Shown here piece after piece: positions 15,894 through 55,213 of a stretch of DNA of 64,000 nt. The stretch spans positions 620,001 to 684,000 of the forward strand of contig DRFI01000020.1 of the NCBI GenBank assembly GCA_011050675.1. The letters are read 5' to 3'. The stretch's first letter is position 1, and each line of letters opens with the position of its first letter. Under the pieces are notes generated by a model. The model was not told where the DNA came from, ran no database searches, and was given only the letters and a program-made list of their open reading frames with translations. Made by a program: the position numbers and the translations under genes. The stretch comes from Maribacter sp. Its GTDB lineage: Bacteria > Bacteroidota > Bacteroidia > Flavobacteriales > Flavobacteriaceae.

Positions 15894-17705
15894 TTATAAA
15901 ATGGTTCCTTTTAATCGATTCCAAGCTTTTATTAATAACACTCCTGCAATAATAGAAACAACGGTTAGAATAATTGCTTGTGTAGTTCTGCCATAGATCC
16001 AATATCCTGTAGCAAACATAATAGAGTAAATTAATACTACACCTAATAACATTGCTGTTAACCCGGCAGGAACGCTCCATTTTTCTTTATCCTTTACTAT
16101 TTCTACCGCATCTGTATCTGCATCGCTTACCACTTTTGCCCAACCTGGACCGCCTGGTTGTATTTTTCTATAAAAGCTACGTAATGTATCGTTAGATTCT
16201 GGCTGTGTCATAAATGTTGCCATCAACCAAATAGCCGTAGTCAACACTACAATAAATATGTATTCTGACCAGTCTGGCAATAGTCCTGTATCGGTAGCAA
16301 AAAAATATGCACCTATTGGAGTTAGTTTTAATATAATCGAAATAATACCAGATGCGAACATTGCAGTAATTTCACTCCAAGCATTAATTCTCCACCAGAA
16401 CCATCTTAAGATAAAAATAAGTCCGGTACCTGCTCCAAACGCCAATAGCACATCAAACAACTGAAGTGCATTTTGTAGTAATAATGCCAAACCAGCACTA
16501 AATATCATTAAGACAACAGTTGATATTCTACCTACTGCAACCAATTTTTTCTCTGATGCATTTGGGTTAATCTGTTGCTTATAAAAATCATAAACAATGT
16601 ATGACGACCCCCAATTTAATTGCGTACTTATTGTACTCATATATGCTGCAACCAATGAAGCAAGCACAACTCCTAAAAGTCCACTAGGTAATTTTGTCAA
16701 CATAGCAGAATATGCTAAATCATGACCCAATTTATCTGGAGTTACATTAGGAAAAGCCTCTTGTATACTTGCCAAATCTGGGTACACTACTATAGATGCC
16801 AATGCCACCAAAATCCATGGCCAAGGTCTTAACGCGTAATGCATTATATTAAAAAAGAATGTTGCACCAATAGCATGATTTTCATCTTTTGCAGCCAACA
16901 TACGCTGTGCGATATAACCACCTCCACCTGGCTCTGCACCCGGGTACCAAGAACTCCACCATTGTACTGCTAAAGGAATTATAAATAAGGTTATCAATGC
17001 TTTCTTGTTACTAAAATCTGGAAGTATGTTTAGTTTAGAAGCTACATCCTCATTTGCCATCAATGCCTGTATACCTCCAACCTCAGGTATATTCACTAAA
17101 TAATAAGCAGCACCTATTGCCCCTGCCATAGCTACGAAGAACAATAGAAAATCTGTGTACACCACACCTTTAAATCCGCCTAAGGCGCTAAAAGTAACAG
17201 TAATCAAACCAGCACTTACTACTGTTTGCCAAGGCTCTAACCCAAGCATAATACTTCCTATTTTTATAGCAGCCAACGTAACCGCAGACATCGTGATTAC
17301 ATTAAAAATTACCCCTAAATAAATAGCTCTAAATTTTCTTAAAAAACTTGCTGGTTTACCGCCATAGCGCATCTCATAAAACTCAAGATCCGTATTTACA
17401 TTTGATTTACGCCAAAGTTTAGCATAGACAAATACCGTTAACATACCGGTTATCAAAAAACACCACCAAACCCAGTTACCCGAAACCCCATTGGTACGTA
17501 CGATATCTGTAACTAAATTAGGTGTATCTGTGGAAAATGTGGTTGCTACCATTGAAAGTCCTAAAAGCCACCAAGGCATTGTACGTCCTGAAAGAAAAAA
17601 TTCTGAAGAACTTTTACCTGATGTTTTTGATACATAAAACCCTATGCCTAAGACAAGGGAGAAGAAAACTATAATAAAAGTATAGTCTAGCGTACTGAGT
17701 TCCAT
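15894..17705 (-). CDS. Sodium:solute symporter (SSS family)
   Basis: A 603-residue inner-membrane transporter with about 14 membrane segments. The first part contains YFVSKTSGKSS-type and SGRTMPWWLLGLSMVATTFS sequences found in sugar-type SSS carriers. It should use the sodium gradient to import a sugar or other small solute. It is the first gene of a two-gene operon with the NagX-like protein. The start ATG at 17705 is 75 bases from the divergent TauE-type gene. Confidence 0.9.
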   Translation of the reverse strand: MELSTLDYTFIIVFFSLVLGIGFYVSKTSGKSSSEFFLSGRTMPWWLLGLSMVATTFSTDTPNLVTDIVRTNGVSGNWVWWCFLITGMLTVFVYAKLWRKSNVNTDLEFYEMRYGGKPASFLRKFRAIYLGVIFNVITMSAVTLAAIKIGSIMLGLEPWQTVVSAGLITVTFSALGGFKGVVYTDFLLFFVAMAGAIGAAYYLVNIPEVGGIQALMANEDVASKLNILPDFSNKKALITLFIIPLAVQWWSSWYPGAEPGGGGYIAQRMLAAKDENHAIGATFFFNIMHYALRPWPWILVALASIVVYPDLASIQEAFPNVTPDKLGHDLAYSAMLTKLPSGLLGVVLASLVAAYMSTISTQLNWGSSYIVYDFYKQQINPNASEKKLVAVGRISTVVLMIFSAGLALLLQNALQLFDVLLAFGAGTGLIFILRWFWWRINAWSEITAMFASGIISIILKLTPIGAYFFATDTGLLPDWSEYIFIVVLTTAIWLMATFMTQPESNDTLRSFYRKIQPGGPGWAKVVSDADTDAVEIVKDKEKWSVPAGLTAMLLGVVLIYSIMFATGYWIYGRTTQAIILTVVSIIAGVLLIKAWNRLKGTIL

Positions 17706-39806: not shown

Positions 39807-41243
39807 TTAACTCATCTGAATCATTGTTTCCTTAAACTTTGCCTTTGGTGCAGAACAAACAGGACACTCATAATGTTCATCTATATCTTGAAATTTTGTA
39901 CCCGCTGCAATACTCAAAGCTACATCACCAAAAGACTCATCATAAACTGTTAGGCAATCTTGACACTGAAACAACGTTTGTGTTGCTTCTACCACCTCAA
40001 CATTTGTAGTCTCTTTAGAATCATCTAAACGACCTAGCTGATCAAAATACATCTTACTCAATTCCATCAACAAACCAGGTAATTCTATCTTATCTATATC
40101 TTGGGCATAGGTAATATACTTTTGGCTGTTTGGATCAAAATGTTCAAAATGTAGAACATTGTACGTAGGGCGAACTTCAAAGTCTTTAACAATAGTGGGT
40201 AAACTATTCTTTTCGATAATTACCGAGGCAAAGTGAGAACGTTTACCCACTTCATTACTAATACAGAATGTAAGACCATAAGTACTAATATCATTTTGGT
40301 CAAAGCTTCGAACTAAAAATTTCTTTAACTCTAAAGCCTCGCCATCATCAATTGGCACATGCCAATTCATTTCCAATTGGGAATGCCTAACATTGATTCC
40401 TCTTTTACCCAAAAAGCGTTCTAATGCCGGTCTACTCGATTTTTTAATTCCTTTTACTACAAATGATTTCCAAGGAGTAATACATATTTTTCCAATACTG
40501 TTATCTAAACAAAAACCACAAAATGCTTTTAGAAATGACAGGTCATATTTATTGTTTCTCCAGTAAAGACCTAGCCAATACATATCTGGCCCCAAACGGT
40601 TCATACCCTCATAGTATGGGAAAGTTTGAAAAGGAACCTTTAATTCCTTTTCCATCGTTCTATTATTGGTCTCTAAATTTTTGTTCATGACAAAGAACAA
40701 CTCATCTATGTCCGTAATATCCTCATATATTTCTTCGAACTGTTTAGAAATGGAATTAATATCCCAACTATAGATAAGAACCGGATAAAATGCAGACGAT
40801 TTCCAATGGGGTAGTTTAATGTTTAAATACCAATAATCTTCTTGTTCAGAAGCTATAAAGTTGAGGTTGCCACTAAAGATAGGAACCAAGCGTTGTTTTG
40901 GATCTGTAATATTGATTTTTAATTTCGGTAAAAAATCAAATCCTTCTAGAATATAGAGATAAGTAGACCCTTTTAACCAATGGGTCATGTCAAAAATATC
41001 TGCAGATACATATGAGCTTACAATGTTCTGAAAAGTACGATTGGCAATAATATCGGTATTGAATTTAGAAATACTTTCTAACTGTTCTTCTTTAGCATCT
41101 TTCAACGGAAACAAAATATCTTGTCTCGACCCAAAATTGACGCTTTTAAGCCCCGCTGCTTCTAACATCGTAATAATATCTTTCAATTCACCAGGAGAGG
41201 TGACTCCTCCTTTTATCAGTATTCTATGAAGATCATCGTTCAT
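39807..41243 (-). CDS. Nitrite/sulfite reductase ferredoxin-like domain fused to rubredoxin
   Basis: A 478-residue protein. The first 60 residues (LIKGGVTSPGELKDIITMLE, FGSRQDILF) resemble the ferredoxin-like half-domain of nitrite and sulfite reductases, and a second such region may follow (GKICITPWKSFVVKG). No siroheme cysteine set is present. The C-terminus is a rubredoxin with CQDC and CPVC ligands for one iron. It lies 11 bases downstream of the nitrate reductase gene in the same operon, so it is a probable electron carrier or docking subunit for that enzyme. Confidence 0.78.
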   Translation of the reverse strand: MNDDLHRILIKGGVTSPGELKDIITMLEAAGLKSVNFGSRQDILFPLKDAKEEQLESISKFNTDIIANRTFQNIVSSYVSADIFDMTHWLKGSTYLYILEGFDFLPKLKINITDPKQRLVPIFSGNLNFIASEQEDYWYLNIKLPHWKSSAFYPVLIYSWDINSISKQFEEIYEDITDIDELFFVMNKNLETNNRTMEKELKVPFQTFPYYEGMNRLGPDMYWLGLYWRNNKYDLSFLKAFCGFCLDNSIGKICITPWKSFVVKGIKKSSRPALERFLGKRGINVRHSQLEMNWHVPIDDGEALELKKFLVRSFDQNDISTYGLTFCISNEVGKRSHFASVIIEKNSLPTIVKDFEVRPTYNVLHFEHFDPNSQKYITYAQDIDKIELPGLLMELSKMYFDQLGRLDDSKETTNVEVVEATQTLFQCQDCLTVYDESFGDVALSIAAGTKFQDIDEHYECPVCSAPKAKFKETMIQMS

Positions 41244-41254
41244 ATCGCGCTATT

Positions 41255-44200
41255 CTAATTTGCTAAAACCAGCTGTTTCTTTAATAATTCTTTTATTTCG
41301 GGCTTACAACTTCCACAACCTAAACCTGCCCCTGTTTCTGAACATAATTTGTTGAAATCTGAGCATCCGCCTTTTATTGCATCAAGTACATTGCCTTCTC
41401 CAACCTGACTACAAGAGCAGACCAATTTTCCTTTTAAAGGAACGGATGTTGAGGCACCTCGCAGCAGTTCATTTCGCTTTTCGGATAATTCAATCTCTTC
41501 TTCTATCAGTCTTTTAAATTCTGCAAATTCATTTTTATCACCCAGTAAAATGGCGCCTTTTAACGTATCATCTTTTACAATACATTTCTTATAAAAACGC
41601 TTACTTACATCCATTAAAATGATTTCCTCATAAGTAGAATCGCCAATGGGTGAATTCACCATACCAATACTACAGAGATCCAGATTTTCGAATTTTAAAA
41701 TATTCATTAACACCGAACCATTGTAAATACTACTGAAGTCTCCAAGTATAAAATTAGCTGCAATATCGGCTTGTTGTTCTGCAGCCGAAGTAATACCGAA
41801 AAGCGAATTTTTGAACTCTGCTATTTCACCTAAAGCAAATATAGACGGGTCGCTACTTTGCAAATATGAATTTACCACGACACCTCTACGCGTATTGATG
41901 CCTGTTTGTTTTGCCAATTCAATATTTGGTCTGGTACCGATAGCATATACTATAGCATTACATTGAATAGTACGACCTGTTTTTAGATTAACAGATAGGC
42001 TATGTTTTTGGTTCTTATCCTCAAAAACAGTACTTACTTCATTATCGAAATAAAGATTTATACCTCGTTCTACTACATCTTCTGCCAATAAACGACTTGC
42101 AACGCTATCTAGCTGCCGTTCCATTAATCGTGGTGCACGTTGTATAATACTAATGTTGATATTGATTTTTTTCAATGCAGCAGCGAGCTCTAGTCCTAAT
42201 AGGCCTCCACCTACAATAACCACATTTTGGTCTTTAGCCTGCAGTCCGGTTTCTGCGAGGTATTTTCTTAGTTTATCTGCATCACCTCGTTCACGCATCG
42301 TAAAACGACCGGGTAATTGTATCTGAACATCACTAGGTATAAAGGCTCTACTACCTGTGGCCATTATTAGTAAATCGTACGAATGTTTTTCTCCATTAGA
42401 ATCTACTACTGTTTTATTTTCCGCATCTACATTTTCAATTCCTACTCCAGAATGTAATACTACATCTAGTTTTTTCAACTCCCCATCTTTAAGCTTCTCT
42501 AAAGCTTCCCAAGAAAGCTCATCACTTACATATTCTGGGAGTAAAACTCGATTATAGAAAGGGTCTTTTTCCTTTGAAAATACATGAAGTTCATCAATAC
42601 TATTTTTCTCTCTATACGATTGTATAAAACGATACGCTGCAGCACCTGCACCTATAACCACTACTTTCTGTTTCTCTTTTACAAACTTTGCAACCTCAAC
42701 AGCACAGTATTTAAAATCGGGCTCTTTTGATACCGGATCTACCAAGTCATTGGTTAAATTATTTACCCTGCCAAAATCATTATTCAATACTCTACCCCAG
42801 TGCATGGGCAGGAAAACAACGGATTCGCGTATATCATAATTCAGCTGCACTTTCACCTGTACTTTTCCTCTTCTGCTTTTTACAACCGCTATATCCCCTT
42901 CTTTAATCTTCCGTAAATACGCATCTACTGCGTTCATTTCTAAATAGGGCTGTGGAACATGCGTCAATAATCTTTTCACCTTACCGGTTTTGGTTCGGGT
43001 ATGCCATTGATCACGAACCCTACCTGAGTTCAGTATCAACGGGTAGTCGATAGTCGTTTCTTCAGATTTATTATAAAGTGTTGCTGGCGCATTAAAATGT
43101 GCCTTTTTATCGTTGGTAAAGAACTTGCGGTCCGTAAATAATCTAGGTGTTCCTTTATGCGTTTTATGTGGAACCGGCCATTGAAAACTACCTTCATTTA
43201 TCAACCGTTCATAAGACAAGCCAGAAATATCTATTTCAGTGCCTTTTGTCAATAAACAGTGTTCGTCATAGACTTCACTGCTATTCTTATAATCGAAGCC
43301 TTTATAGCCCATTGCCTGTGCAAAACGCCATATAATTTCTGCATCTGGTAATGCTTCACCCGGTGCATCTATAACTTTAGGCAAATGACTAATTCGTCTT
43401 TCTGAATTGGTCATGGTACCTTCTTTCTCTAACCAACCCGCTGCCGGTAATAATAAATCGGCAAATTTGGTTGTTTCAGAATTATGGGATATATCTTGAA
43501 CTACTACGAATTTTGCCTTTTTTAAAGCTCTTTCTACTTTGTTAGAATTAGGCATACTTACCGCAGGGTTAGTACATACGATCCAAATCGCTTTTAACTT
43601 ACCTTCATCTAGGGCATCGAACATTTCTGTTGCGGTATAGCCTGGTTCTGACTGTATTTCTCCACCTCCCCAAAAATCGGACACTTCTTTTCTGTGTGCC
43701 GCATTTCCTAAATTTTTATGTGCTGCCAACAAGCTGGCCATACCACCAACTTCTCTACCGCCCATAGCATTAGGTTGCCCTGTCAAAGAAAATGGTCCAG
43801 CACCTGGTTTGCCTATTTGCCCCGTTAAAAGTGACAAATTTAGTAATGATACATTTTTAGCTACACCAATAACACTTTGGTTCAACCCCATAGTCCACAT
43901 GCTGATAAACTTCTTGGCATTACCAATATATTCGGCAGCTTTACGAATATCACCAACGGGAATACCACATTTTTTAGCAGCTTCTTTCAGTGATAAGGTA
44001 AACGCCATTTCTTTAACCGCCTCAAAATTTGCGGTGTGCTTTTTTATAAAGGCGGAATCTATTTTTCTTTTCTCGATTAATCGACGGGCTATAGCATTAA
44101 AAAGAATAACATCGGTACCCGGTAAAATCTGTAAATGCAAATCGGCACCTGCACAGGTTTGGGTTTTTCGAGGATCAACTACAATTATTTTTACGTTAGG

Positions 44201-44785
44201 GTTCTCTTCCTTGTGCTTTTCCAACCTTCTATATAATATCGGATGGCACCATGCCGGGTTAGCCCCTGCAATTAGAAAACAATCTGCTAATTCTATATCG
44301 TCATATGAAATAGGAACAGAATCTTCGCCTAATGTTTTTTTATAGCCAACAACGGCAGAACTCATGCACAACCTTGAGTTGGTATCTATGTTATTGGTAC
44401 CTATAAATCCTTTAGTGAGTTTGTTAATTAGATAGTATTCTTCTGTTAAACATTGACCGGACACATAGAATCCCACACTATTAGAACCATGTTTTGCGAT
44501 GATGCTTTTAAAAACAGCAGCTGCACGTTCAAAAGCAGTGTCCCAAGAAACTCGTTGTAATGGGTGATTTCTGCTCCATTTCATTTCTGGATACAGAATT
44601 CGATCTGTTTTATCTTGGGCTACATAATTGAGATTTCGACCCTTTGTACAAAGCATGCCTTTGTTTGATGGATAATCGGGATTACCATCTACCGATATAG
44701 TTCCTTTTGAATCTACATTAACCAACATACCACAGCCTACACCGCAATATGAACATATCGTTTTATGAGTTTTATTACTATTCAT
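41255..44785 (-). CDS. Assimilatory nitrate reductase with fused NirB-like diaphorase and BFD domain
   Basis: A 1176-residue multidomain enzyme reducing nitrate to nitrite. An N-terminal [4Fe-4S] site (CSYCGVGCG, residues 11-19, fourth Cys in GMLCTKG) opens a molybdopterin oxidoreductase of the NapA/NasA type (to about residue 690). From about 708 (KVVVIGAGAAAYRF) comes a FAD/NAD(P)H diaphorase like NirB, and from about 1118 a BFD-like [2Fe-2S] domain (CSCSQ, CGSC). Electrons could pass from NADH to Mo within one chain. A frame extends to 44863, but the operator at 44836-44851 lies there, so I start at ATG 44785. Confidence 0.9.
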   Translation of the reverse strand: MNSNKTHKTICSYCGVGCGMLVNVDSKGTISVDGNPDYPSNKGMLCTKGRNLNYVAQDKTDRILYPEMKWSRNHPLQRVSWDTAFERAAAVFKSIIAKHGSNSVGFYVSGQCLTEEYYLINKLTKGFIGTNNIDTNSRLCMSSAVVGYKKTLGEDSVPISYDDIELADCFLIAGANPAWCHPILYRRLEKHKEENPNVKIIVVDPRKTQTCAGADLHLQILPGTDVILFNAIARRLIEKRKIDSAFIKKHTANFEAVKEMAFTLSLKEAAKKCGIPVGDIRKAAEYIGNAKKFISMWTMGLNQSVIGVAKNVSLLNLSLLTGQIGKPGAGPFSLTGQPNAMGGREVGGMASLLAAHKNLGNAAHRKEVSDFWGGGEIQSEPGYTATEMFDALDEGKLKAIWIVCTNPAVSMPNSNKVERALKKAKFVVVQDISHNSETTKFADLLLPAAGWLEKEGTMTNSERRISHLPKVIDAPGEALPDAEIIWRFAQAMGYKGFDYKNSSEVYDEHCLLTKGTEIDISGLSYERLINEGSFQWPVPHKTHKGTPRLFTDRKFFTNDKKAHFNAPATLYNKSEETTIDYPLILNSGRVRDQWHTRTKTGKVKRLLTHVPQPYLEMNAVDAYLRKIKEGDIAVVKSRRGKVQVKVQLNYDIRESVVFLPMHWGRVLNNDFGRVNNLTNDLVDPVSKEPDFKYCAVEVAKFVKEKQKVVVIGAGAAAYRFIQSYREKNSIDELHVFSKEKDPFYNRVLLPEYVSDELSWEALEKLKDGELKKLDVVLHSGVGIENVDAENKTVVDSNGEKHSYDLLIMATGSRAFIPSDVQIQLPGRFTMRERGDADKLRKYLAETGLQAKDQNVVIVGGGLLGLELAAALKKININISIIQRAPRLMERQLDSVASRLLAEDVVERGINLYFDNEVSTVFEDKNQKHSLSVNLKTGRTIQCNAIVYAIGTRPNIELAKQTGINTRRGVVVNSYLQSSDPSIFALGEIAEFKNSLFGITSAAEQQADIAANFILGDFSSIYNGSVLMNILKFENLDLCSIGMVNSPIGDSTYEEIILMDVSKRFYKKCIVKDDTLKGAILLGDKNEFAEFKRLIEEEIELSEKRNELLRGASTSVPLKGKLVCSCSQVGEGNVLDAIKGGCSDFNKLCSETGAGLGCGSCKPEIKELLKKQLVLAN

Positions 44786-44830
44786 TTTATCAATGATAAA
44801 GAATGGTTCAGAAGTATACTGCAAATTATA

Positions 44831-44856
44831 AAAAGTACGTATAAATACGTACTTTT
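44831..44856 (-). promoter_or_regulatory. NarL-like 7-2-7 operator before nitrate reductase
   Basis: A perfect 16-bp dyad, TACGTAT-AA-ATACGTA at 44836-44851, extends outward by G/C and four A/T pairs to 44831-44856. It stands 51 bases before the nitrate reductase ATG. An imperfect -7 element (TTTG on the minus strand, 44822-44825) lies between. The geometry is that of NarL-type sites. The rest of the spacer to 45056 has a short palindrome AATTGATCAATT (44918-44929) and nothing else clear. Confidence 0.75.
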
Positions 44857-45056
44857 TTATCATAAATGTTCAGTAATAAATCGAGTGATTCGTAATTAAT
44901 TTACTCAAGTACTGAGAATTGATCAATTAAGGAAAAAGTAGCGCATAGAAATATTAATGCTACGGTTCTAAGTTAAGCATTAGCAATCACAGAAACTGCA
45001 TGTAAATACAACCTGATATTTCTCTCGTTAAATAATACCAGCGAATGTAGAAACCT

Positions 45057-45728
45057 TTAGATAAGGTTATGTTTCTGAGACTTTTTAGAAAGGTCAATTA
45101 GATTTTTTACATCCATTTTACGCATTAAATTAAAACGATGTGTTTCAATAGTACGTTTACTATTTTGAAGTTTTTCTGATATCTGTTGATTGGTTAACCC
45201 AGAAAGGACTAACTCTAAAACCTTAAGTTCTTTATTGGTTAAATCAAAGACGTTATCACCAGTTTTACGAGGTGCTTCTTCTTTAATCACCTCTTTTTTT
45301 ACACTCATTAAGTTATTAACCAACACATTACTGATGTCTCCGCTAAAATACTTTCCACCATCTCTAACGGTATGTATCGCTTTTATAAATTCTGACTTAT
45401 CAGTATCCTTTAAAAGATATCCATTGGCTCCAGAGCTTATAGATTTTAGAATGTATTCTTCAGAATCATGCATTGAAAGTATAATAGACTTCACCTCGGT
45501 TTTGCTATTTGTAAGCTCTGCCACGGCATCTATACCATTCATGACCGGCATTCTAATATCTATAATTAAAATATCGGGTTTTACCTTATTTACTAATTCA
45601 ATAGCTTCTTTCCCGTTCGATGCTTCGCCAATTACGTCTAGGTCAGATTCCGATTCTAATAAAGATCGAATTCCGTCTCTAACCAAAGCGTGGTCATCTG
45701 CCAATACTATTCTCGTTGTTTCACTCAA
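45057..45728 (-). CDS. NarL/FixJ family response regulator
   Basis: A 223-residue regulator. The receiver domain has the acidic pair in VLADDHALVRDG, the phospho-acceptor Asp in DILIIDIRMPVMNG and the switch Lys in LLKDTDKS. The C-terminal LuxR-type HTH is LTNKELKVLELVLSG and LTNQQISEKLQNSKRTIETH. The start appears to be TTG (45728); no ATG is available before the receiver. It lies inside the nitrate cluster and is the natural partner of the NarX-like kinase at 53363. A 13-bp inverted repeat of the operator type lies just upstream. Confidence 0.9.
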   Translation of the reverse strand: MSETTRIVLADDHALVRDGIRSLLESESDLDVIGEASNGKEAIELVNKVKPDILIIDIRMPVMNGIDAVAELTNSKTEVKSIILSMHDSEEYILKSISSGANGYLLKDTDKSEFIKAIHTVRDGGKYFSGDISNVLVNNLMSVKKEVIKEEAPRKTGDNVFDLTNKELKVLELVLSGLTNQQISEKLQNSKRTIETHRFNLMRKMDVKNLIDLSKKSQKHNLI

Positions 45729-45737
45729 AATATAGGT

Positions 45738-45770
45738 AATTATACGTAATAAGCTAAATTACGTATAATT
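45738..45770 (-). promoter_or_regulatory. 13-bp inverted repeat with TACGTA cores before the response regulator
   Basis: AATTATACGTAAT (45738-45750) and its exact complement ATTACGTATAATT (45758-45770) flank seven bases. Each arm contains TACGTA, the core of the nitrate-gene operators, but the spacing differs from the 7-2-7 sites. It begins ten bases before the TTG start, so it may mediate autoregulation. Confidence 0.65.
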
Positions 45771-45823
45771 TTAAAATGATGATACGGTTTATGATACCAA
45801 GGATGTTTAGATGGTATATAGTT

Positions 45824-47107
45824 TTATTCTTTCTTCGTCTTTAAAAATTGAGGTTTAATTGTCAACTGTACCCAAGCCCAATTCTGACTACTTGCCGCAA
45901 GGTCATCTGTTATCCCTTTTAGCTCATACATACCATCTGCAGCGAACATTTGAGAATAACCAACAGCTAGTCCATACCCATTAAAAGCCTTGGAAAAAAC
46001 CAAATCAATTTCGGTACCCAAAGATTTTTCGCCACTGGGTAGTTCTTGTTCTCCGCTAAAATTTAAGACCTTAATAAGTAAGCTAGATTTCTTTCCTAAA
46101 TCGAATTTAGCGCTTGCGTGAATATCAAACAGACCAACAGAATTGGCATGGTTACCTACGTAGAAATAATCCATAAATCCGTTAAATTTATGATTGGTAC
46201 CATAAAGCGGGAAAAATGCTTCTGTCTTATCTGTAGTATCCGCCTTGTTTCCACTTATAACTTCTGTCCCTAAACCTAACGTTACTTTATCGCTTGCCTT
46301 ATATCCTAAGTCTAGCCCAAACAAATACGTTCCCCCAACTTTCAACTCATTTTGTCTTTCACCTATTTGTAAAAACAAGTTGGCATTTGCGCTAAAACTT
46401 CCTCCTTCATACCCCAAGTGTGTTCCTATAGTTTGTAGGTTACTCACCCCATCTGTTTCTTCTTCGGTATCAAAATTCTGAAAACCATTATTCAAAGCCA
46501 ATATGCTTACCGAGAAATTATCCCATTGTTGTTTGGCGTATAGATATTGCATTGTTTTATAGGTAAAAAATCCTGATGTATTATAGGCTGTTCCTACGGA
46601 TTGAAACCCTGCCGGATTATCAAAATCTTGACTAAAAGCCAGACCTACATCCAACATAAATTTATCTTTCTTATACTTTAAAAGTCCCGCATCATGGTTT
46701 CTACCCTGCTGTGCCCAATCTAGCCCCCCAAAAATACGTTGGTCATCATATGAAATTACTTGTCTACCAAGTTTTGTAGACCAACCCTTGCCTAAACTAA
46801 TGTCTGCCCAAGCTTCAAATACCGCAAAAGAATCGTTTTGATCATCGGGTAGAATTTGCCTGTTTTCTCCCCAAACCATTACATCTTGTATGCTTAAATA
46901 GAATTGATAGGCTTCCGTTTCGTACTTGGCATTTAAACGTGCTCGTGTAGAAATTGCAAATCCTGCGTCTGCAGCATCAGGAATTATACTACCAAAACCA
47001 TGTCTATATTCTGTTCTTGGTCTAAACTGCCCGTCTAAAGTGAATTGAGCATTAGCTATTTGAACACACAGAAAAACAAAGCATGCTATTTTATATGGAC
47101 TTCTCAT
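45824..47107 (-). CDS. Outer-membrane porin, alginate-export-like
   Basis: A 427-residue secreted protein (signal MRSPYKIACFVFLCVQIANAQ) with a beta-barrel pattern. The N-terminal QFRPRTEYRHGFG and ISTRARLNAKYE fit the alginate export family of outer-membrane channels. It is 105 bases downstream of narK on the same strand, so it is likely co-transcribed and could let nitrate or nitrite through the outer membrane; that substrate is inferred from position. Confidence 0.78.
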   Translation of the reverse strand: MRSPYKIACFVFLCVQIANAQFTLDGQFRPRTEYRHGFGSIIPDAADAGFAISTRARLNAKYETEAYQFYLSIQDVMVWGENRQILPDDQNDSFAVFEAWADISLGKGWSTKLGRQVISYDDQRIFGGLDWAQQGRNHDAGLLKYKKDKFMLDVGLAFSQDFDNPAGFQSVGTAYNTSGFFTYKTMQYLYAKQQWDNFSVSILALNNGFQNFDTEEETDGVSNLQTIGTHLGYEGGSFSANANLFLQIGERQNELKVGGTYLFGLDLGYKASDKVTLGLGTEVISGNKADTTDKTEAFFPLYGTNHKFNGFMDYFYVGNHANSVGLFDIHASAKFDLGKKSSLLIKVLNFSGEQELPSGEKSLGTEIDLVFSKAFNGYGLAVGYSQMFAADGMYELKGITDDLAASSQNWAWVQLTIKPQFLKTKKE

Positions 47108-47212
47108 TGATTACTTTTTAGTTTAGAATTATAGATGATTGATAAACCCAGAAATGATATAAGGGTTAATGACTGGTAATTAAAATTATTACGGGTTTCT
47201 TTAATTCGTGTT

Positions 47213-48625
47213 CTAGTCTATACTTGAAAATTTTAACTCACCTAGCATCTCCGCCTTAACAGCTTTTTCGTCGGCTGTAGAAAATTTTATGGCCAAGGTT
47301 GTAAGAGCACTAATAACCACAAACCCACCTATGATAAAATAACCGCTGGAAACTGCACTTGAAGCAGCTGCAGCTTGTGCCGCTTTCATGGCCTCTTCAC
47401 CTAAATTGGCATTTGCCGCTAATGCATTCGTTTCCGCTAAAGACGATTTAGATTTTAATAGAAGTGCTGCTAAAAAAGCACCTACATTACCTCCTGCACC
47501 TACAATACCAGAAATAGAACCAATGGCTTTTTTATTGATAAATGGAACTACAGAGAATGTTGCTCCTTCCGCCATTTGTACTGTAATACTAAAAGCTATT
47601 AAAAATATTATTCCTAGTGCGAAACTAGTTGTCATTGAAAAAACAGAAAGCATGGCGCCTTCTAGGGCAAGTATTACAGTTAAGAACAATACTCTACCTC
47701 GTAGTCCTTTTAATTTACCGAATCGATCACCGAAAAACCCACCCAAAGTACGAGCAAATATGTTCATTAAGGCGAAGGAAAGTACAAGGTTCCCCGCTGT
47801 AGATCTAGTAAGTCCGAATGTATTTTGCAGGTAATCATCCATAGTACCATACACGGTAAGTTCCATTCCAAAAGAGGCTGCATATACTATGAAAAGAATC
47901 CAAACACGGTAATCTTTTAAAACGCTCAAAAATGATTCTTCGTCCTTTTTCAGCTTCGGCATTTTTCCGGCTTCTTTTAATTCTTTGAAGTTGCCTTCTG
48001 GGGTATCTTGTGTAAAAAAATAATAAACAACACCCATTATCATTGCAATTATACCAGCAATAATCATAGAATAACGCCAAGCAAATTCATCAGCTACGCC
48101 AAAACTTACTACTGCAGCAGCAATTAAAGGCATACCTAAACGGTTGGCCCCGCCTCCTAAATTTCCCCAACCTGCAGATGTAGCATTTGCCGTACCCACA
48201 ATATTTGGAGCGAACATGATAGAGGTATGAAATTGAGTGATTACAAATGAGGCTCCAGTAAACCCAATAAATAGCCTACATATTAAGAATTGCATAGGTG
48301 TTTGAACAAAACCAATGAGTATTACAGGAATTGCTCCTAAAATCAACAAATACGTATAACATAATCTAGGACCGTATTTATCACAAAGCTTACCGATTAA
48401 TAATCGTGCAAAAACAGTTCCCGTTACCGCTAGAATTATGGAGTTCCATTTTTGATCAGGTGTTAAACCCAAATCTTTTACCACATCTGGCATAAACGGT
48501 ACAATACCGAACCATGCAAAGAAGCATATGAAGAATGCTATAGAGGTTATCCAAAAAGTACGAATTGGCATACTCTTTAAATCGGTTAATTTTAATGTGG
48601 TCGATTTCTTAGATTTATTTTCCAT
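47213..48625 (-). CDS. narK: Nitrate/nitrite transporter (MFS, NarK/NRT2 type)
   Basis: A 470-residue major facilitator with 12 membrane segments. Both nitrate signatures are present: AGWGNLGGGANRLGMPLI in the fifth segment and SGIVGAGGNVGAFLAALL in the eleventh. It imports nitrate (or exchanges nitrite). Its promoter has an exact -7 element with an operator dyad in place of a -33 element. The porin follows downstream. Confidence 0.95.
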   Translation of the reverse strand: MENKSKKSTTLKLTDLKSMPIRTFWITSIAFFICFFAWFGIVPFMPDVVKDLGLTPDQKWNSIILAVTGTVFARLLIGKLCDKYGPRLCYTYLLILGAIPVILIGFVQTPMQFLICRLFIGFTGASFVITQFHTSIMFAPNIVGTANATSAGWGNLGGGANRLGMPLIAAAVVSFGVADEFAWRYSMIIAGIIAMIMGVVYYFFTQDTPEGNFKELKEAGKMPKLKKDEESFLSVLKDYRVWILFIVYAASFGMELTVYGTMDDYLQNTFGLTRSTAGNLVLSFALMNIFARTLGGFFGDRFGKLKGLRGRVLFLTVILALEGAMLSVFSMTTSFALGIIFLIAFSITVQMAEGATFSVVPFINKKAIGSISGIVGAGGNVGAFLAALLLKSKSSLAETNALAANANLGEEAMKAAQAAAASSAVSSGYFIIGGFVVISALTTLAIKFSTADEKAVKAEMLGELKFSSID

Positions 48626-48656
48626 AATACAGTTGGTTTTAATTAATAAAGATGTA

Positions 48657-48690
48657 CAAACCTACTATATTTAATACGTATTAATACTTA
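48657..48690 (-). promoter_or_regulatory. narK promoter with operator over the -33 region
   Basis: CAAACCTA (48657-48664) reads TAGGTTTG on the minus strand, an exact -7 match. Ten bases upstream lies TACGTAT-TA-ATACTTA (48675-48690), the nitrate dyad with one mismatch. No TTG occurs at the proper -33 place, so the operator occupies that region, as expected for an activator. A lone TACGTAT lies further up at 48715-48721. Nothing else is clear between here and 48874. Confidence 0.7.
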
Positions 48691-48874
48691 GTTTTATAAT
48701 TTTATAAGCCGAAATACGTATTTTTATGTGAATTAAGAATATGAGAGCCTTAAAATATATATTTGATATTTTTAAAAAGAGAATTTTTAGATATCCTTAA
48801 TTTGAGATGTTGAGTTTAAGCTAAACCGATAGTGAATTACGTAGTTCTAAGCAACTATAATCCCGTTTTCTAAA

Positions 48875-49654
48875 TTAAATTTCAGAATGAAGTACCCGCT
48901 GAACTTCCTCTTCAAAAAATGATGGGTGATCCGCAACCACATCACCAATTACAATAATACCAGGCATATTCTTTATAATAGAATTGGTATGGTTACTTAT
49001 AGTATCTAATGTAGCAACAATACAGCGTTCATTTTCTGTAGTACCATTTTGAATAACTGCAACTGGTGTCATTCTACCTCTATATTTACTTACCTCATCA
49101 ACTATTTCGATTAGTTTTCTTACTCCCATTAATATGACCATAGTGGTAGAGGACTTAGCTGCATATTTTAAATCTTGAGAAAATGTGCCATCTCGTTTTG
49201 TAGCGGTCATCACCCAAAAACTACTGCTAACCCCTCTTTTAGTCATAGGTATTCCTTGACTGGAAGGTACTGCTATAGCACTTGAAATTCCTGGTATTAC
49301 GCTTACCGGGATACCAAACGATTCTACATATTCTATTTCCTCATTTGCTCTTCCAAAAACGAACGGGTCTCCTCCTTTCAATCGTACTACATGACCATAT
49401 TTAAATGCGTTTTGTACTATAAGTTCGTTAATTTCATTTTGAGTGTGAGAGTGCTTTCCACACCTTTTTCCAATATATACTCTAGGTATATTAGTACGTA
49501 TTTCAGATAATAGCTCATTACTAATTAGCGCATCATATAAAATGATATCAGCTTCGTTTAAAACCTTTAAACCCCTTACTGTTATTAAGTCTTTAGCACC
49601 AGGACCAGCTCCTACTAAACTTACTTTTGCCGTTTTATCTAATTCCATCTTCAT
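48875..49654 (-). CDS. cobA: Uroporphyrinogen-III C-methyltransferase
   Basis: A 259-residue SUMT that makes precorrin-2 for siroheme, the cofactor of NirB. Motifs are VSLVGAGPGAKDLITVRG at the N-terminus, VRLKGGDPFVFGRANEE and the PGISSAIAVPSSQGIPMTKRG loop. The start is ATG 49654 (49648 is also possible). It is divergent from nirB, with a single TACGTAT half-site (49694-49700) 40 bases upstream. The oxidation and iron steps are supplied by the gene at 55200. Confidence 0.95.
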   Translation of the reverse strand: MKMELDKTAKVSLVGAGPGAKDLITVRGLKVLNEADIILYDALISNELLSEIRTNIPRVYIGKRCGKHSHTQNEINELIVQNAFKYGHVVRLKGGDPFVFGRANEEIEYVESFGIPVSVIPGISSAIAVPSSQGIPMTKRGVSSSFWVMTATKRDGTFSQDLKYAAKSSTTMVILMGVRKLIEIVDEVSKYRGRMTPVAVIQNGTTENERCIVATLDTISNHTNSIIKNMPGIIVIGDVVADHPSFFEEEVQRVLHSEI

Positions 49655-49693
49655 AGTATTTAGCTTTATTAATTATCGATTCAGCAACAAGAA

Positions 49694-49742
49694 TACGTAT
49701 TTATTTTATTATAATCATACAATATATACGTATTAATACGTA
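49694..49742. promoter_or_regulatory. Divergent cobA/nirB control region with a perfect 7-2-7 operator
   Basis: TACGTAT-TA-ATACGTA at 49727-49742 is a perfect 16-bp dyad ending 29 bases before the nirB ATG. A half-site TACGTAT at 49694-49700 lies on the cobA side. The -7 element for nirB is imperfect (for example TAATATTG at 49741-49748). Confidence 0.75.
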
Positions 49743-49771
49743 ATATTGTTGTGTAGCTAAATAGTAAGGAT

Positions 49772-52288
49772 ATGAAAACTATAATTGTTGTCGGTAATGG
49801 AATGGTAGGGTACAAATTCTGTGAGAAGTTTGCTGCACGAGAGGAAAGCAAGCATTTTAAACTGATTGTCTTTGGTGAAGAACCACGTGCTGCTTATGAT
49901 AGAGTACACCTTAGTGAATTCTTTGGTAGTAGAGATGCCAAGGCTTTGGAAATGGCCCCTTTAGAATGGTATGCAGATAATCAAATAGAGTTAATCGTAA
50001 ACGAACGGGTTACGGACATTCATAGGACTAAGAGAACGATTACTACTGCCAGTGAGAAGGAGTTTAGTTATGATTATCTTATTCTAGCCACTGGATCCGC
50101 CCCTTTTGTCCCTCCTATTAATGGTGTAGAGAAAAAAGGTGTTTTCGTTTATAGAACCATAGAAGATCTAGAGGCAATGTTAAATTATGCCGAGGAAATC
50201 AAAAAGACAAAACCGAATGCCAGAGCTGCTGTTTTAGGTGGCGGACTTCTTGGTCTGGAGGCAGGAAAAGCAGTTATGGATATGGGCCTTGAGCCACACG
50301 TTGTAGAGTTTGCTCCCAAACTAATGCCAAGACAATTAGACTCTAGAAGTAGTAATGTACTTCAACTAACCTTAGAAAATATAGGAATATCTATACATAC
50401 CGGTAAAGCTACTAATAGTATAATGGGTAATGGCGCCATAACGGGAATGGATTTTGGTGAGGATGATACACTAGATGTTGATATGTTGGTCATATCCGCA
50501 GGTATTCGCCCGAGAGATGAATTAGGTAAAACTTGTAATCTAGAAATGGGAGTTCGTGGCGGAATTGTGGTTAACGATAAAATGCAAACCTCTGACCCAA
50601 CCATATATGCTATTGGAGAGGTAGCTTTATATAACCATATGATTTATGGTTTGGTTGCTCCTGGTTACGAAATGGCAGAGGTAGCGGTAAACCAAATTCT
50701 TGAAACTAGCGAAGTTGTCATGAAACCTGAAATTGATATGTCTACCAAGCTTAAGCTTATTGGGGTAGATGTTGCCAGTTTTGGTATCCCTTATATGCCA
50801 GCCGAGAAAGGACTTTCCATAATTTACGAGAACAAGACAAAGGGTATTTATAAAAGAATTAATGTAAGTCACGATGGTAAAACTCTTTTAGGTGGAATCA
50901 TGGTGGGTGATGCGGAAGACTATAGTATTCTTCACCAAATGTACCTGAACAATATGCCCCTTCCAGATAATGCGGAAGAACTAATTGTTGGTTCTAGAGG
51001 AGAAGGCGGTTCTGCTTTTGGTAGCGCAATGGACTTACCAGATACAGCCGTAATCTGTTCTTGTGAGGCAGTAACGAAAGGTGCTGTTTGCTGCTCGGTT
51101 ATAGAAGATGGAAATGAAACGATAAAAGACGTCGCAAAGGCTACCAAAGCAGCCACAGGTTGTGGTGGCTGTAAACCAATGGTAGCAGATTTAATAAAGG
51201 AGAGTCTTAAAACATTAGGAAAAACAGTGAAAGAACGTTTATGCGAGCATTTCAATTATTCTCGCCAAGAGCTTTTTGACCTTGCAAAACTTAAAGGTAT
51301 AACTGATTATGACACACTGTTAGATGAAGTTGGTACCGGTAACGGATGCGAAGTTTGTAAGCCTGCAGTAGCTGCCATTTTTGCCAGTCTTTACAATGAA
51401 ACTGCAAACAGACAAGAGTCTATACAAGATACAAACGATAGGTATTTAGCAAATATTCAACGTAACGGTACCTATTCTGTAGTACCAAGAGTTGCAGGTG
51501 GTGAAATTACACCGAAGCAACTAATGGCTATCGGTAGAATTGCCCAAAAATATGATTTGTATACAAAGATTACCGGTGGTCAACGTATAGATATGTTCGG
51601 CGCTAAACTAAATGAACTACCATTAATTTGGGAAGAATTAATAGAAGAAGGTTTTGAAACAGGGCAAGCATACGGAAAATCTTTACGTACTGTAAAAAGT
51701 TGTGTGGGTTCTACTTGGTGCCGTTATGGAATGGATGAAAGTGTAAGCTTCGCTGTGGAAATAGAGCATCGCTATAAAGGTATTCGTTCTCCACATAAAT
51801 TTAAAGGCGGTGTTTCTGGATGTATCCGTGAATGCGCAGAAGCAAGAGGAAAAGATTTTGGCTTTATAGCTGTCGAAGGTGGATGGAACGTTTACGTTGG
51901 CGGTAATGGTGGTGCTACTCCAAAACATGCAATCTTACTAGCCGAAAAAGTAGATAAGGAAACCGCCATAAAATATGTAGATCGCTTTATCATGTTCTAT
52001 ATAAAAACAGCACAGCCATTACAAAGAACTGCCCCATGGTTAGAAAAGCTAGAAGGTGGTATTACCTACTTACAAAATGTAATTATAAATGATTCATTAG
52101 GCATCGTAGCGCAATTGGATACCGAAATGCAAGCCTTGGTAGATTCTTATGTATGCGAATGGAAAGAAGCTGTTGAAACTCCAGAAATTAGAGAACGATA
52201 TACACATTTCGTTAACTCTGAAGAAACGGACAACAACATCGAATTTGTATCATTAAGAGATCAAAAAATGCCTAAAGAATGGGCATAA
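49772..52288 (+). CDS. nirB: Assimilatory nitrite reductase (NADH), large subunit
   Basis: An 838-residue cytoplasmic enzyme reducing nitrite to ammonium. An N-terminal FAD/NADH domain (VVGNGMVGYKF, LGGGLLGLEAGKAV) is followed by two BFD-like cysteine regions (CSCEAV with CGGC; CEVC), the ferredoxin-like half-domain and the siroheme/[4Fe-4S] domain with C-VGSTW-C and C-IRE-C ligands. It leads the operon nirB-nirD-DUF4202-kinase-siroheme dehydrogenase. Confidence 0.97.
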   Translation: MKTIIVVGNGMVGYKFCEKFAAREESKHFKLIVFGEEPRAAYDRVHLSEFFGSRDAKALEMAPLEWYADNQIELIVNERVTDIHRTKRTITTASEKEFSYDYLILATGSAPFVPPINGVEKKGVFVYRTIEDLEAMLNYAEEIKKTKPNARAAVLGGGLLGLEAGKAVMDMGLEPHVVEFAPKLMPRQLDSRSSNVLQLTLENIGISIHTGKATNSIMGNGAITGMDFGEDDTLDVDMLVISAGIRPRDELGKTCNLEMGVRGGIVVNDKMQTSDPTIYAIGEVALYNHMIYGLVAPGYEMAEVAVNQILETSEVVMKPEIDMSTKLKLIGVDVASFGIPYMPAEKGLSIIYENKTKGIYKRINVSHDGKTLLGGIMVGDAEDYSILHQMYLNNMPLPDNAEELIVGSRGEGGSAFGSAMDLPDTAVICSCEAVTKGAVCCSVIEDGNETIKDVAKATKAATGCGGCKPMVADLIKESLKTLGKTVKERLCEHFNYSRQELFDLAKLKGITDYDTLLDEVGTGNGCEVCKPAVAAIFASLYNETANRQESIQDTNDRYLANIQRNGTYSVVPRVAGGEITPKQLMAIGRIAQKYDLYTKITGGQRIDMFGAKLNELPLIWEELIEEGFETGQAYGKSLRTVKSCVGSTWCRYGMDESVSFAVEIEHRYKGIRSPHKFKGGVSGCIRECAEARGKDFGFIAVEGGWNVYVGGNGGATPKHAILLAEKVDKETAIKYVDRFIMFYIKTAQPLQRTAPWLEKLEGGITYLQNVIINDSLGIVAQLDTEMQALVDSYVCEWKEAVETPEIRERYTHFVNSEETDNNIEFVSLRDQKMPKEWA

Positions 52289-52347: not shown

Positions 52348-52728
52348 ATGTCTTTATCTGTTTTAAATACGTACGAAAGTGTAACCGAAACTAATGTCAC
52401 AGTCTGGTTCAAAGCAGCACCTACTTCTAGATTTCCTAAAAATGGCGGGGCATGCATAAAATACAAGGACAAACAAATTGCTATTTTCAATTTCACACGT
52501 GAAGGCACTTGGTATGCTTGTCAAAATTTATGTCCGCATAAGATGGAAATGGTACTTTCTAGGGGTATGATCGGAGAAGAGAATATGGAGCCTAAAGTAG
52601 CTTGCCCATTACACAAAAATACCTTTTCGTTAAAAACTGGAGAAAATTTGAATGGCACCTTAGAGGGAATAGCTACCTATCCTATTAAAATAGAGGATGA
52701 CTTTGTGTATGTTGGCTTTTCTGAATAG
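52348..52728 (+). CDS. nirD: Nitrite reductase small subunit (Rieske-like)
   Basis: A 126-residue Rieske-fold partner of NirB. Cluster-binding residues are seen in CQNLCPHKM and CPLHKNTFSL, so it belongs to the group that keeps the [2Fe-2S] ligands, unlike E. coli NirD. It lies 59 bases after nirB. Confidence 0.95.
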   Translation: MSLSVLNTYESVTETNVTVWFKAAPTSRFPKNGGACIKYKDKQIAIFNFTREGTWYACQNLCPHKMEMVLSRGMIGEENMEPKVACPLHKNTFSLKTGENLNGTLEGIATYPIKIEDDFVYVGFSE

Positions 52729-52749: not shown

Positions 52750-53340
52750 ATGGCGATAACGGATAAATTATTAGTAGCATTTCAATATTTTGACGAAGCC
52801 AATAAACAAGATCCCAATACAGAAATCTTTGAAGGAACTACGTATCCAAAAGAAGTATTGTATGGTATTAGAATGACCGAACGCCTTAATGAGTTTAACC
52901 CAAATGCATCTGAAGCTTTACGGTTAACCGCTAGATGTCAACACATCTGTAGATGGGAAATACCAAGGGAGTCATATGAAATGAATCGCGAAGGGTACCT
53001 TAGATGGAGACAAGATCTAAAAAAATTCCACGCGAATAAAGCTGCGGCTATTTTAGAGGAAATTGATTATGATCAAGATACAATCGATAAAGTACGTTTT
53101 CTATTAGAAAAAAAACAGCTGAAGAAAAACGAAGAAACACAAACCTTGGAAGATGTTATCTGCTTGGTTTTTCTAGAGTTTTATTTTGAGCCATTTGCTC
53201 ATAAACATGCAGAAGATAAGACTATAGACATTCTTCAAAAAACATGGAGAAAGATGTCTACAAAGGGGCAAGATGCTGCATTAAAATTACCGCTATCTAA
53301 ATATTCTATAGATTTAATTACCAAGGCGCTACAAGCCTAA
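52750..53340 (+). CDS. DUF4202 protein of the nitrite operon
   Basis: A 196-residue soluble, helical protein of the DUF4202 family. It has conserved His, Cys and Glu residues (RCQHICRWEIPRE near residues 57-69, and FYFEPFAHKHAEDK later) that could form a metal site similar to HD-type proteins. Family members often appear beside assimilatory nitrite or sulfite genes; function unknown. It sits 21 bases after nirD and 22 before the kinase. Confidence 0.8.
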   Translation: MAITDKLLVAFQYFDEANKQDPNTEIFEGTTYPKEVLYGIRMTERLNEFNPNASEALRLTARCQHICRWEIPRESYEMNREGYLRWRQDLKKFHANKAAAILEEIDYDQDTIDKVRFLLEKKQLKKNEETQTLEDVICLVFLEFYFEPFAHKHAEDKTIDILQKTWRKMSTKGQDAALKLPLSKYSIDLITKALQA

Positions 53341-53362: not shown

Positions 53363-55213
53363 ATGGCCAATAACGACCACAATATACCATTGGACACGGC
53401 TACCTTTATACGTATACGTAAGTGGTATCTATTGGCTTTGGCCGCCATTGCTATTACCATCATTATTGCCCAAGTACTTATACAATTACACCTAAAAGCG
53501 CAATCTGGAGATTCTCAACTTATAAACATAGCAGGTAGACAACGTGCTTTTAGTCAGAAACTAGTAAAGGAAATGCTGCTCTTAAAAGACAGCAATGATC
53601 CTAGCAAGAAAAAAGTAATACTATCAGAGATTGCCGAGACTCTTAAAGTTTGGAAGGTTTCGCATCAAGGTCTGCATTTAGGTGATGCTTCTTTTAATCT
53701 CCCTTATGAAGATGATTCAAAAATCCGATCACTTTTTAACGAACTTGAGCCGCACCATGCTACTATGGTTAATGCTTTAGAACATATACTTTCGACCCAT
53801 CAACAGAACATTAATACCTCGGTACAGGAAAAAGATATAAATACTCTTTTAGAAAATGAACGTCCGTTTTTGGACATCATGGACCAAATTGTAAATGAAT
53901 ATGACGCCCGTAGTAATGAACAGCTTCAGAAACTAAAACAAAAGGAGTATTGGTTATTGGCTTTTTCGTTATTAATTCTCCTGTTAGAAATCTTCGTAAT
54001 CTTTAGACCATTATCCATCCAAATTAAAAAGACTATTGGCAACCTAATGGGTAAGGATGAGGAATCTAAAGGTCAACTAGAAAAAATTCAAAACCTATAC
54101 GAGGAAAAAGAACAATCCTTAAAAGAGTTACAAGAACTAAATTTCGTTATTGATAACGCCGCACTATTCGCGAGTATACGTAAAGATGGCTCCATTGTCT
54201 TTATTAGTAAAAAGTTTTTAGATCTATTAGACCACGAAACTATACCGGTAAATAAACCTATCTCAGAAATATTAACGACAGAGGAAGGTCAGCAATCTTA
54301 CCTAAAAGAGGTATTGAAAATAAACCGGAAGAACGTTATTCGTAAAGAAGAGTTGCAAGTCGTTACTTCTAAAGGCACCACCATTTGGTTAGATATGTCT
54401 ATCGTACCCATGCATCAATCTACCCTAGAACAAGATATTCTAATTCTATGTTCAGATATTACAGAGCGAAAAGAAAACCAGCTTAAAGTACAAGAACTGA
54501 CCAAACAGAATTTTGAGGAGCGCATGCAGCAAAAAAAGGTGCAAGCAAGCCAAATAGTAGAGGGTCAAGAAGAAGAACGTAAGCGTATTGCTAAAGATAT
54601 TCATGACGGAATAGGACAAATGCTTACTGCCCTTAAATTTAATATTGAGTCTATAGATATTGAGGATAAAGCAAAAACGGGTGAAAAAATCGCTTATTTA
54701 AAAAGCTTGACATCAGACCTAATAAAAGGTGTTAGAACGGCCACCTTTAATCTTACTCCGCCAGAATTAAGTGATCACGGTATATTTCCTGCTATTCATA
54801 AAATGACCACAGAGCTTTCTAAATTAACTGGAAAGAATATCTTGTTCAAAAACAAAACAGATAGTAATTACAGATTCGATTCTCTTGCAGAGACCAATAT
54901 TTATCGTGTTACGCAAGAGGCAGTTAACAACGCCATAAAATATGCCGAAGCCAATTATATTTTGGTTACTTTAAATTACTCGTACCCAATTTTAAGTGTA
55001 GTTATAGATGATGATGGCAAAGGTTTTGACGATACCATTTTAGGACAATTACCAAAAAACAACAGTGATGGTGGTATGGGTCTATTTTTCATGAAAGAAC
55101 GTATTGACTATATTAACGGGCGCTTATTCATAAATTCTGAACTTGGTAAGGGTACGCGTGTCACCATTAATTATAAAACCGAAGAAAACAAAATTTTACA
55201 TGGAACGGAATGA
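53363..55213 (+). CDS. NarX-like sensor histidine kinase
   Basis: A 616-residue membrane kinase. The first membrane segment (about residues 21-42) is followed by DSQLINIAGRQRAFSQKLV, very like the nitrate-binding P-box of NarX/NarQ and PilJ-type sensors. A periplasmic helical domain, a second membrane segment (about 196-218), a coiled coil, a PAS domain (about 255-375) and a HisKA_3/HATPase core follow, with phospho-acceptor His414 in AKDIHDGIGQML and the N-box EAVNNAIKYAEA. HisKA_3 kinases pair with NarL-family regulators, and the one at 45057 is the obvious partner. Its gene overlaps the next by 14 bases. Confidence 0.9.
   Translation: MANNDHNIPLDTATFIRIRKWYLLALAAIAITIIIAQVLIQLHLKAQSGDSQLINIAGRQRAFSQKLVKEMLLLKDSNDPSKKKVILSEIAETLKVWKVSHQGLHLGDASFNLPYEDDSKIRSLFNELEPHHATMVNALEHILSTHQQNINTSVQEKDINTLLENERPFLDIMDQIVNEYDARSNEQLQKLKQKEYWLLAFSLLILLLEIFVIFRPLSIQIKKTIGNLMGKDEESKGQLEKIQNLYEEKEQSLKELQELNFVIDNAALFASIRKDGSIVFISKKFLDLLDHETIPVNKPISEILTTEEGQQSYLKEVLKINRKNVIRKEELQVVTSKGTTIWLDMSIVPMHQSTLEQDILILCSDITERKENQLKVQELTKQNFEERMQQKKVQASQIVEGQEEERKRIAKDIHDGIGQMLTALKFNIESIDIEDKAKTGEKIAYLKSLTSDLIKGVRTATFNLTPPELSDHGIFPAIHKMTTELSKLTGKNILFKNKTDSNYRFDSLAETNIYRVTQEAVNNAIKYAEANYILVTLNYSYPILSVVIDDDGKGFDDTILGQLPKNNSDGGMGLFFMKERIDYINGRLFINSELGKGTRVTINYKTEENKILHGTE

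Follow-up and report, generated by a model that had tools for sequence, protein, structure and literature searches.

A candidate operator of a nitrate two-component system at the nitrate and nitrite reductase promoters of Maribacter and other Flavobacteriaceae

What reads the palindrome that recurs at the nitrate genes of Maribacter sp. (Flavobacteriaceae)? The DNA in question, hereafter the window, is a stretch of 64,000 nucleotides (assembly GCA_011050675.1, contig DRFI01000020.1, positions 620,001 to 684,000), in which an initial annotation had noticed a 7-2-7 palindrome, TACGTAT-N2-ATACGTA, at the promoters of the nitrate reductase gene (nasA), narK and nirB. We followed this strict motif together with a relaxed dyad, TAMGTA-N4-TACKTA, and its half-site, TAMGTA. 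Sequence comparison indicates that the palindrome is very probably the operator of narHK/narRR, the nitrate two-component system of the same cluster, with the product of 45057-45728 as the predicted binder. The motif scan returned three dyads exactly where they had been placed and with the same mismatch counts (0, 0 and 1), as well as a more degenerate copy:

44836..44851, no strand: perfect dyad TACGTATAAATACGTA, 0 mismatches, upstream of nasA
48675..48690, no strand: one-mismatch dyad TACGTATTAATACTTA, reading TAAGTATTAATACGTA toward narK
49727..49742, no strand: perfect dyad TACGTATTAATACGTA, 0 mismatches, in the divergent region between nirB and cobA
45733..45748, no strand: degenerate dyad TAGGTAATTATACGTA, 2 mismatches, directly upstream of the regulator gene
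45733..45769, no strand: two TACGTA half-sites, at 45743 and 45760, with the degenerate dyad, upstream of the regulator gene

Copies with zero or one mismatch number three in the whole 4,714,719-base genome and all fall within one 4,907-base span; at this level, full dyads in the window are indeed confined to these intergenic spots, as first reported. When up to three mismatches are allowed, the window holds 8 matches to the 16-mer against 3.65 expected, and 3 of 100 shuffles reach 8. This is mildly above chance, and the strength of the case rests on the near-perfect copies. The relaxed dyad occurs at 6 places genome-wide (control, 4), and the 3 outside the cluster each lie within an open coding frame; on this ground, further regulon members elsewhere in this genome were rejected. 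Upstream of the regulator gene, the region 45733..45769 is a weak candidate for an autoregulatory site. Both TACGTA hexamers belong to an inverted repeat at 45739-45769, in which two arms of 12 bases match perfectly across a gap of 7 bases and the spacing is wider than 7-2-7.

The initial annotation had proposed enrichment upstream of orthologous nitrate genes as the test of its idea, and the outcome was strongly positive. Two sets were used: 397 evenly drawn genomes of the family, among which 93 carry nirB (66 genera) and a subset of 92 also carry the kinase (at 1e-60), and the best 80 of 227 nirB loci. In the genome set, the nirB upstream region was readable in 92 of the 93, and a relaxed dyad lies within 300 bases of the start in 90/92; the control, the same pattern read backwards, gave 0/92. 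The two misses are G228, which has a one-mismatch form, and G346, in which the order is cobA-nirB and the dyad precedes cobA. The 93rd nirB genome, G390, has diverged matches to the regulator (41%) and the kinase (31%) beside nirB and a dyad. The strict 16-mer was found in 22/26 genomes with a close kinase (at least 62% identity) and in 10/66 with a more distant one.

In the locus set, relaxed dyads were sought within 160 bases of the start. They were present at nirB (78/79), narK (47/49), nasA (32/46) and the regulator gene (15/46), and none was found within this distance at algE (0/48), the kinase gene (0/74), nirD (0/80), the DUF4202 gene (0/76), the rubredoxin gene (0/34) or cysG (0/25). 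The dyad follows operon heads, not internal genes. Half-site density is 19.3 per kb in the nirB, narK and nasA upstream regions, 0.68 in nirB coding sequence and 0.33 before internal genes. Over the 1.67 Mb of the 80 loci there are 252 relaxed dyads and 0 matches to the backwards control; 187 of them precede nirB, cobA, narK, nasA or the regulator gene and 65 lie elsewhere. Forty of these 65 were inspected and 39 proved intergenic, with 20 standing before a gene for a lipoprotein of 455-465 residues, usually by about 20 bases. All five of these lipoproteins that were scanned match NMT1_2 (NrtA-like); the genes that follow in L016 encode a permease and an ATP-binding cassette (ABC) ATPase. Others precede a second kind of major facilitator superfamily transporter (3), a globin gene (2; L039 and L070) or a Crp/Fnr gene (2; L049 and L093). 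In relatives, the regulon may thereby include an ABC transporter operon of the nrt type and, in a few of them, globin and Crp/Fnr genes.

The cluster around the dyads (39.8-55.2 kb) encodes a rubredoxin/NIR-domain protein, a nitrate reductase fusion, the regulator, an alginate-export-like outer-membrane protein, NarK, a sirohaem methyltransferase, NirB, NirD, a DUF4202 protein and a kinase:

39807-41243, downstream of the nitrate reductase: nitrite-reductase ferredoxin-like half domain with a C-terminal rubredoxin (NIR_SIR_ferr match barely at cut-off)
41255..44785, minus: nitrate reductase fused to NirB-like flavin and BFD domains, about 1,176 residues in one protein (corrected start)
45057..45728, minus: response regulator of the LuxR/NarL/FixJ type (narRR), Pfam Response_reg and GerE, recognition helix KRTIETHRFNLMRKM
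47213..48625, minus: NarK-type nitrate transporter (310.1 bits, cut-off 311.7)
48875..49654, minus: uroporphyrinogen-III C-methyltransferase of sirohaem synthesis, here named cobA (profile match)
49772..52288, plus: nirB, nitrite reductase large subunit (profile match)
52348..52728, plus: nirD, nitrite reductase small subunit (profile match)
52750..53340, plus: DUF4202 gene, which regularly adjoins the kinase gene (predicted fold HD-like)
53363..55213, plus: sensor kinase (narHK) with PilJ-type sensor, PAS, HisKA_3 and HATPase domains (Pfam)

The longest frame of the nitrate reductase starts at 44863 and would place the dyad within the gene. Its sequence and the upstream regions of orthologues point to the minus-strand ATG at 44785, which precedes NSNKTHKTICSYCG, as the likely start; the dyad then lies 51-66 bases upstream. 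Over the best segment, NirB shares 95% identity with that of Maribacter litoralis. The Pfam matches of the kinase are PilJ (6.3e-10), PAS_9, HisKA_3 and HATPase_c; HAMP and GAF are not among its matches at 0.001. Comparable kinases that have PAS and kinase domains but no Pfam PilJ match occur with a retained operator in L142, L143, L144, L145, L146, L158, L159 and L160.

The regulator and the site vary together. The third base of the nirB dyad and the recognition helix of the linked regulator were read in 83 loci. With helix IET or VET, 45 loci have TACGTA at nirB, 1 has TAAGTA and 1 has no dyad there; with AEV, 22 have TAAGTA and 8 TACGTA; with IDT, 2 have TAAGTA and 0 TACGTA; other helices give 3 TACGTA and 1 TAAGTA. 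Placement also goes with the helix: where it is AEV, a dyad stands at 15/21 regulator genes and at 3/17 nasA genes within 160 bases (7/17 within 260), and with non-AEV helices at 0/25 regulator genes and 29/29 nasA genes. Three genomes (G180, G228 and G383) have the genes for the regulator, the DUF4202 protein and the kinase at a distance from nirB. Their nir/nas locus still contains relaxed dyads; in G180 and G383 these include one at nirB, where G228 has a one-mismatch form. We infer that the regulator binds the dyad. Its dimer would read two TAMGTA half-sites whose centres are 10 bp, or one helical turn, apart, and would bring the transcription units of nirB (with nirD), cobA, narK and nasA under common control in a single local regulon; the kinase at 53363-55213 presumably feeds the regulator, with nitrate as the probable signal.

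How the site is placed on its promoters bears on what binding might do. In Flavobacterium psychrophilum, sigma-A promoters carry TAnnTTTG at -12 to -5, with a second class of TAnnTTGY, as given in the accessible part of PMC9723704. Candidate -7 boxes of this kind, and further half-sites, were found beside the dyads:

44821..44828, minus: candidate nasA -7 box TAATTTGC (TAnnTTGY type), 7 bases downstream of the dyad
48657..48664, minus: candidate narK -7 box TAGGTTTG, 10 bases downstream of the dyad
48715..48720, no strand: a further TACGTA half-site, lying 30 bp upstream of the narK dyad
49688..49699, minus: half-site TACGTA fused, by sequence, to a candidate cobA -7 box (TACGTATTCTTG)
49741..49748, plus: candidate nirB -7 box TAATATTG, its first TA being also the dyad's last

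The nirB arrangement is nearly fixed, the last TA of the dyad being the first TA of a TAnnNTTG box in 77/78 loci and 81/90 genomes. At nasA, the offset from dyad to candidate box is +6 or +7 in 21/32 relatives (8/32 have an offset of 6 or 7 with a TAnnTTGY box) and -2 in 11/32, the nasA boxes being looser. At narK it is -2 in 28/47 and +10 in 15/47, and at the regulator gene +6 or +7 in 12/15. Half-sites are spaced mainly by 10 bp, and also by 20-23, 30 and 33 bp; the 30-bp spacing occurs 9 times in 49 narK regions and the 33-bp spacing 56 times in 79 nirB regions. Position 7 of the nirB half-site is T in 69/90 dyads and A in 21/90, which suggests a fixed hexamer with a preference for the full heptamer. 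From the offsets to the candidate boxes, the dyad centres are estimated at about -18 (nirB), -27 (nasA and the regulator gene) and -30 (narK) relative to the predicted transcription start.

Since the dyad overlaps the -33/-7 promoter core, the bound regulator may exclude RNA polymerase until an inducing signal lifts the block, a proposal to which we give roughly even chances. Conversely, a missing -33 element suggests activation: the same regulator on the same operator would be a nitrate-induced activator that stands in for this element and touches sigma directly, which is a serious possibility, though short of an even bet. Just 6/78 nirB promoters have a TTG in the 12 bases before the dyad, the place in which the -33 element would fall. 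Nitrate-induced activation is also the usual logic of NarX/NarL systems. Escherichia coli NarL activates napF and yeaR through 7-2-7 sites, according to the accessible text of PMC4549865; those sites, however, are centred at -38 to -49, and the centres estimated here lie far nearer the start and not on one helical face. Moreover, the nirB half-site shares the TA that sigma needs (77/78), and 33/78 nirB promoters carry a further half-site between the dyad and the ATG. Between exclusion and activation, we lean slightly to exclusion.

To which known system is this one related? The initial annotation had compared the site with that of enteric NarL, whose heptamer has a consensus near TACYYMT, and had remarked on a G in the fourth place. 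This G is present in both perfect window copies, which thus depart from a TACYYMT-type heptamer; the relaxed pattern fixes G at position 4, so that the count of 90 genomes is no test of TACYYMT. The shared geometry was borne out: the E. coli NarX/NarL regulon, in the accessible part of PMC4549865, likewise has 16-bp sites of inverted heptamers with a 2-bp gap and TAC...GTA ends, at nitrate genes and under a LuxR-type regulator. The engineered narG site given there is TACCCCTAAAGGGGTA; here the half-site is TAMGTAT, with G at position 4. The two systems also differ in that the site described here overlaps the promoter core and the kinase has PAS in place of HAMP and GAF. The regulator had been called NarL-family. 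It is of the LuxR/NarL/FixJ type, and NarL is its best sequence match in the PDB (122.3 bits), but it scores 146.5 bits against the NCBIfam NarL equivalog (cut-off 250), on which ground NarL membership was rejected, and its helix NSKRTIETHRFNLMRKM, aligned with TESTVKVHVKHMLKKM of NarL, is not of the NarL kind. The kinase also falls well below the NarQ (72.2 bits, cut-off 553) and NarX (64, cut-off 578) equivalogs.

The half-site core TAMGTA is closer to that of FixJ than to that of NarL. FixJ selects GTAMGTAG by systematic evolution of ligands by exponential enrichment and has the fixK site TAAGTAATTTCCCTTA, as reported in the accessible text of PMC4999443, and its helix RTVEVHRANVMAKM, among the closest solved, resembles RTIETHRFNLMRKM of the regulator and, in relatives, RTAEVHRFNLMKKL. 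FixL/FixJ responds to oxygen, not nitrate; the regulator scores 82.2 bits against the FixJ equivalog (cut-off 255); and FixJ protects -69 to -44 and -57 to -31 at fixK (PMC4999443, same text), unlike the site here. When the DNA-binding domain alone is compared, the best solved-structure sequence matches are those of EsrB (7vim, 44.3 bits) and SsrB (2jpc, 41.2 bits). These two proteins govern other regulons. The system fits the Bacteroidetes nitrate-sensing pair named narHK/narRR in PMC8199190, characterized in its accessible text by a kinase with a nitrate-type sensor and PAS, without HAMP or GAF, and a paired regulator, among nitrate genes. The same is found here: a PilJ, PAS and HisKA_3 kinase lacking HAMP and GAF matches, encoded with its regulator among the nitrate genes. 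That text describes proteins and gene order, without a DNA site or regulon; the present analysis contributes a candidate operator and its place on the promoter, together with more candidate members and the kinases that lack the sensor.

Several observations weigh against an operator dedicated to this nitrate system. The relaxed pattern was derived partly from the same 80 loci on which it was then counted, and these loci and the 92 genomes overlap and share descent, so the counts are not independent events; the association of helix and operator may likewise reflect shared ancestry. Fourteen of 46 relatives, all with the AEV helix, lack a dyad within 160 bases of nasA (4 of the 14 have one within 260), cobA shows no clean dyad offset of its own (27/52 are without any box), and in this genome the upstream region of the regulator gene has the degenerate dyad alone, with its 2 mismatches. 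Among the 40 inspected dyads away from the usual genes, 1 lies within a frame, and for several the nearest gene start is more than 300 bases off. The strict 16-mer is also found in 26/305 kinase-less genomes, in excess of the control (6/397 genomes). Beyond the family the picture is mixed: in a class-wide sample the kinase was detected, at 1e-60, in 7/395 genomes, 4 of them in the family, and of three genomes from other families, G659 has a dyad at nirB, G749 has TACGTA-N5-TACGTA, and G599 lacks a dyad at nirB, though its locus L129 carries dyads at 17401 and 18296. Finally, eight relatives (G002, G237, G389, G082, G228, G180, G383 and G030) keep their dyads with kinases that have no Pfam PilJ match at 0.001; nitrate may therefore not be the sole input, which weakens the case for nitrate sensed through PilJ as the one signal.

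With 11 GerE matches in the genome scoring above cut-off, the dyad could have a different LuxR-type protein as its binder. That it serves such a protein, or one of the Crp/Fnr type, is nonetheless improbable: a Crp/Fnr gene is present in some relative loci, with the dyad upstream in the two mentioned above, but none is among the scanned proteins of this cluster, the narRR-type regulator accompanies the dyad even when unlinked, and helix and operator are associated. We give very little credence to the palindrome being a mere promoter variant (an extended -7 element) or a hairpin. At nirB its 3' half-site is fused to the -7 box, and 7/16 kinase-less loci carry a perfect copy between convergent genes (L105, L114, L115, L117, L118, L123 and L125), some flanked by A/T runs as in a terminator; this inspection took in 19 loci, of which 3 come from kinase-positive genomes, and covers part of the 58 genomes positive for the strict 16-mer. 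Yet the 5' half-site is retained too, many dyads at nasA, the regulator gene and narK are separated from the candidate -7 box by 6-10 bases, and the nirB dyad is upstream of the predicted transcript. A terminator or hairpin was considered on account of the kinase-less copies and does not apply to the promoter copies. Chance in AT-rich DNA would fit the 2-mismatch level, at which 24 further places bring the genome total to 27 against 28 for the control pattern, with no excess; it is ruled out by the restriction of the 0-1 mismatch sites to one cluster and by the 90/92 against 0/92, and we regard it as negligible.

Some palindromes in other genomes deserve separate mention. In L114, L115, L118, L123 and L125, perfect TACGTATNNATACGTA copies lie beside a different LuxR-type regulator gene and, in most, have on their other side a conserved gene, presumably acyltransferase-like, that ends in NPPQSGILGMHNIVERPVA-type sequence; some of these copies look like bidirectional terminators. 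In L110, a long palindrome around 1501, AACAACTACGTATATATACGTAGTTGTT, stands beside a transporter gene, and the genes across it appear, from the protein sequence, to resemble succinate dehydrogenase.

The DUF4202 gene lies between nirD and the kinase gene in the window and most relative loci, and it travels with the regulator and kinase in the three genomes where these leave the nir locus. Its predicted fold (predicted local distance difference test score, 96.7) comes closest to hydrolases of the HD superfamily, small alarmone hydrolases among them. One could combine all of this into a family-wide regulon whose operator is fused to the Bacteroidota -7 box, in which a FixJ-like regulator competes with sigma, operator and helix coevolve, the sensor is exchangeable and the HD-fold DUF4202 protein is a constant partner that feeds an intracellular signal (nucleotide or nitrogen status) to the kinase where PilJ has been lost; that every part of this scheme holds at once seems unlikely.

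The open-licence literature searched yielded neither the term DUF4202 nor a description of this operator, the latter being weak as evidence of absence. The proposal of a Bacteroidota nitrate regulon with its own operator is supported by the enrichment and refined by a FixJ-like core and a site over the core promoter; as to its novelty, the protein pair was already reported (PMC8199190, accessible text), and we judge that the operator and promoter layout are what was not found described. As far as that literature shows, nitrate control in Bacteroidota is otherwise known from protein surveys such as the accessible part of PMC8199190. A defined operator makes the regulon testable across the 66 nirB-bearing genera of the sample and would allow nitrate genes to be predicted in marine genomes. 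The paired helix and operator variants offer a natural set for studying how LuxR-type regulators choose their DNA, and the nirB promoters raise the question of how such a regulator can act from a site that has bases in common with the -7 box.

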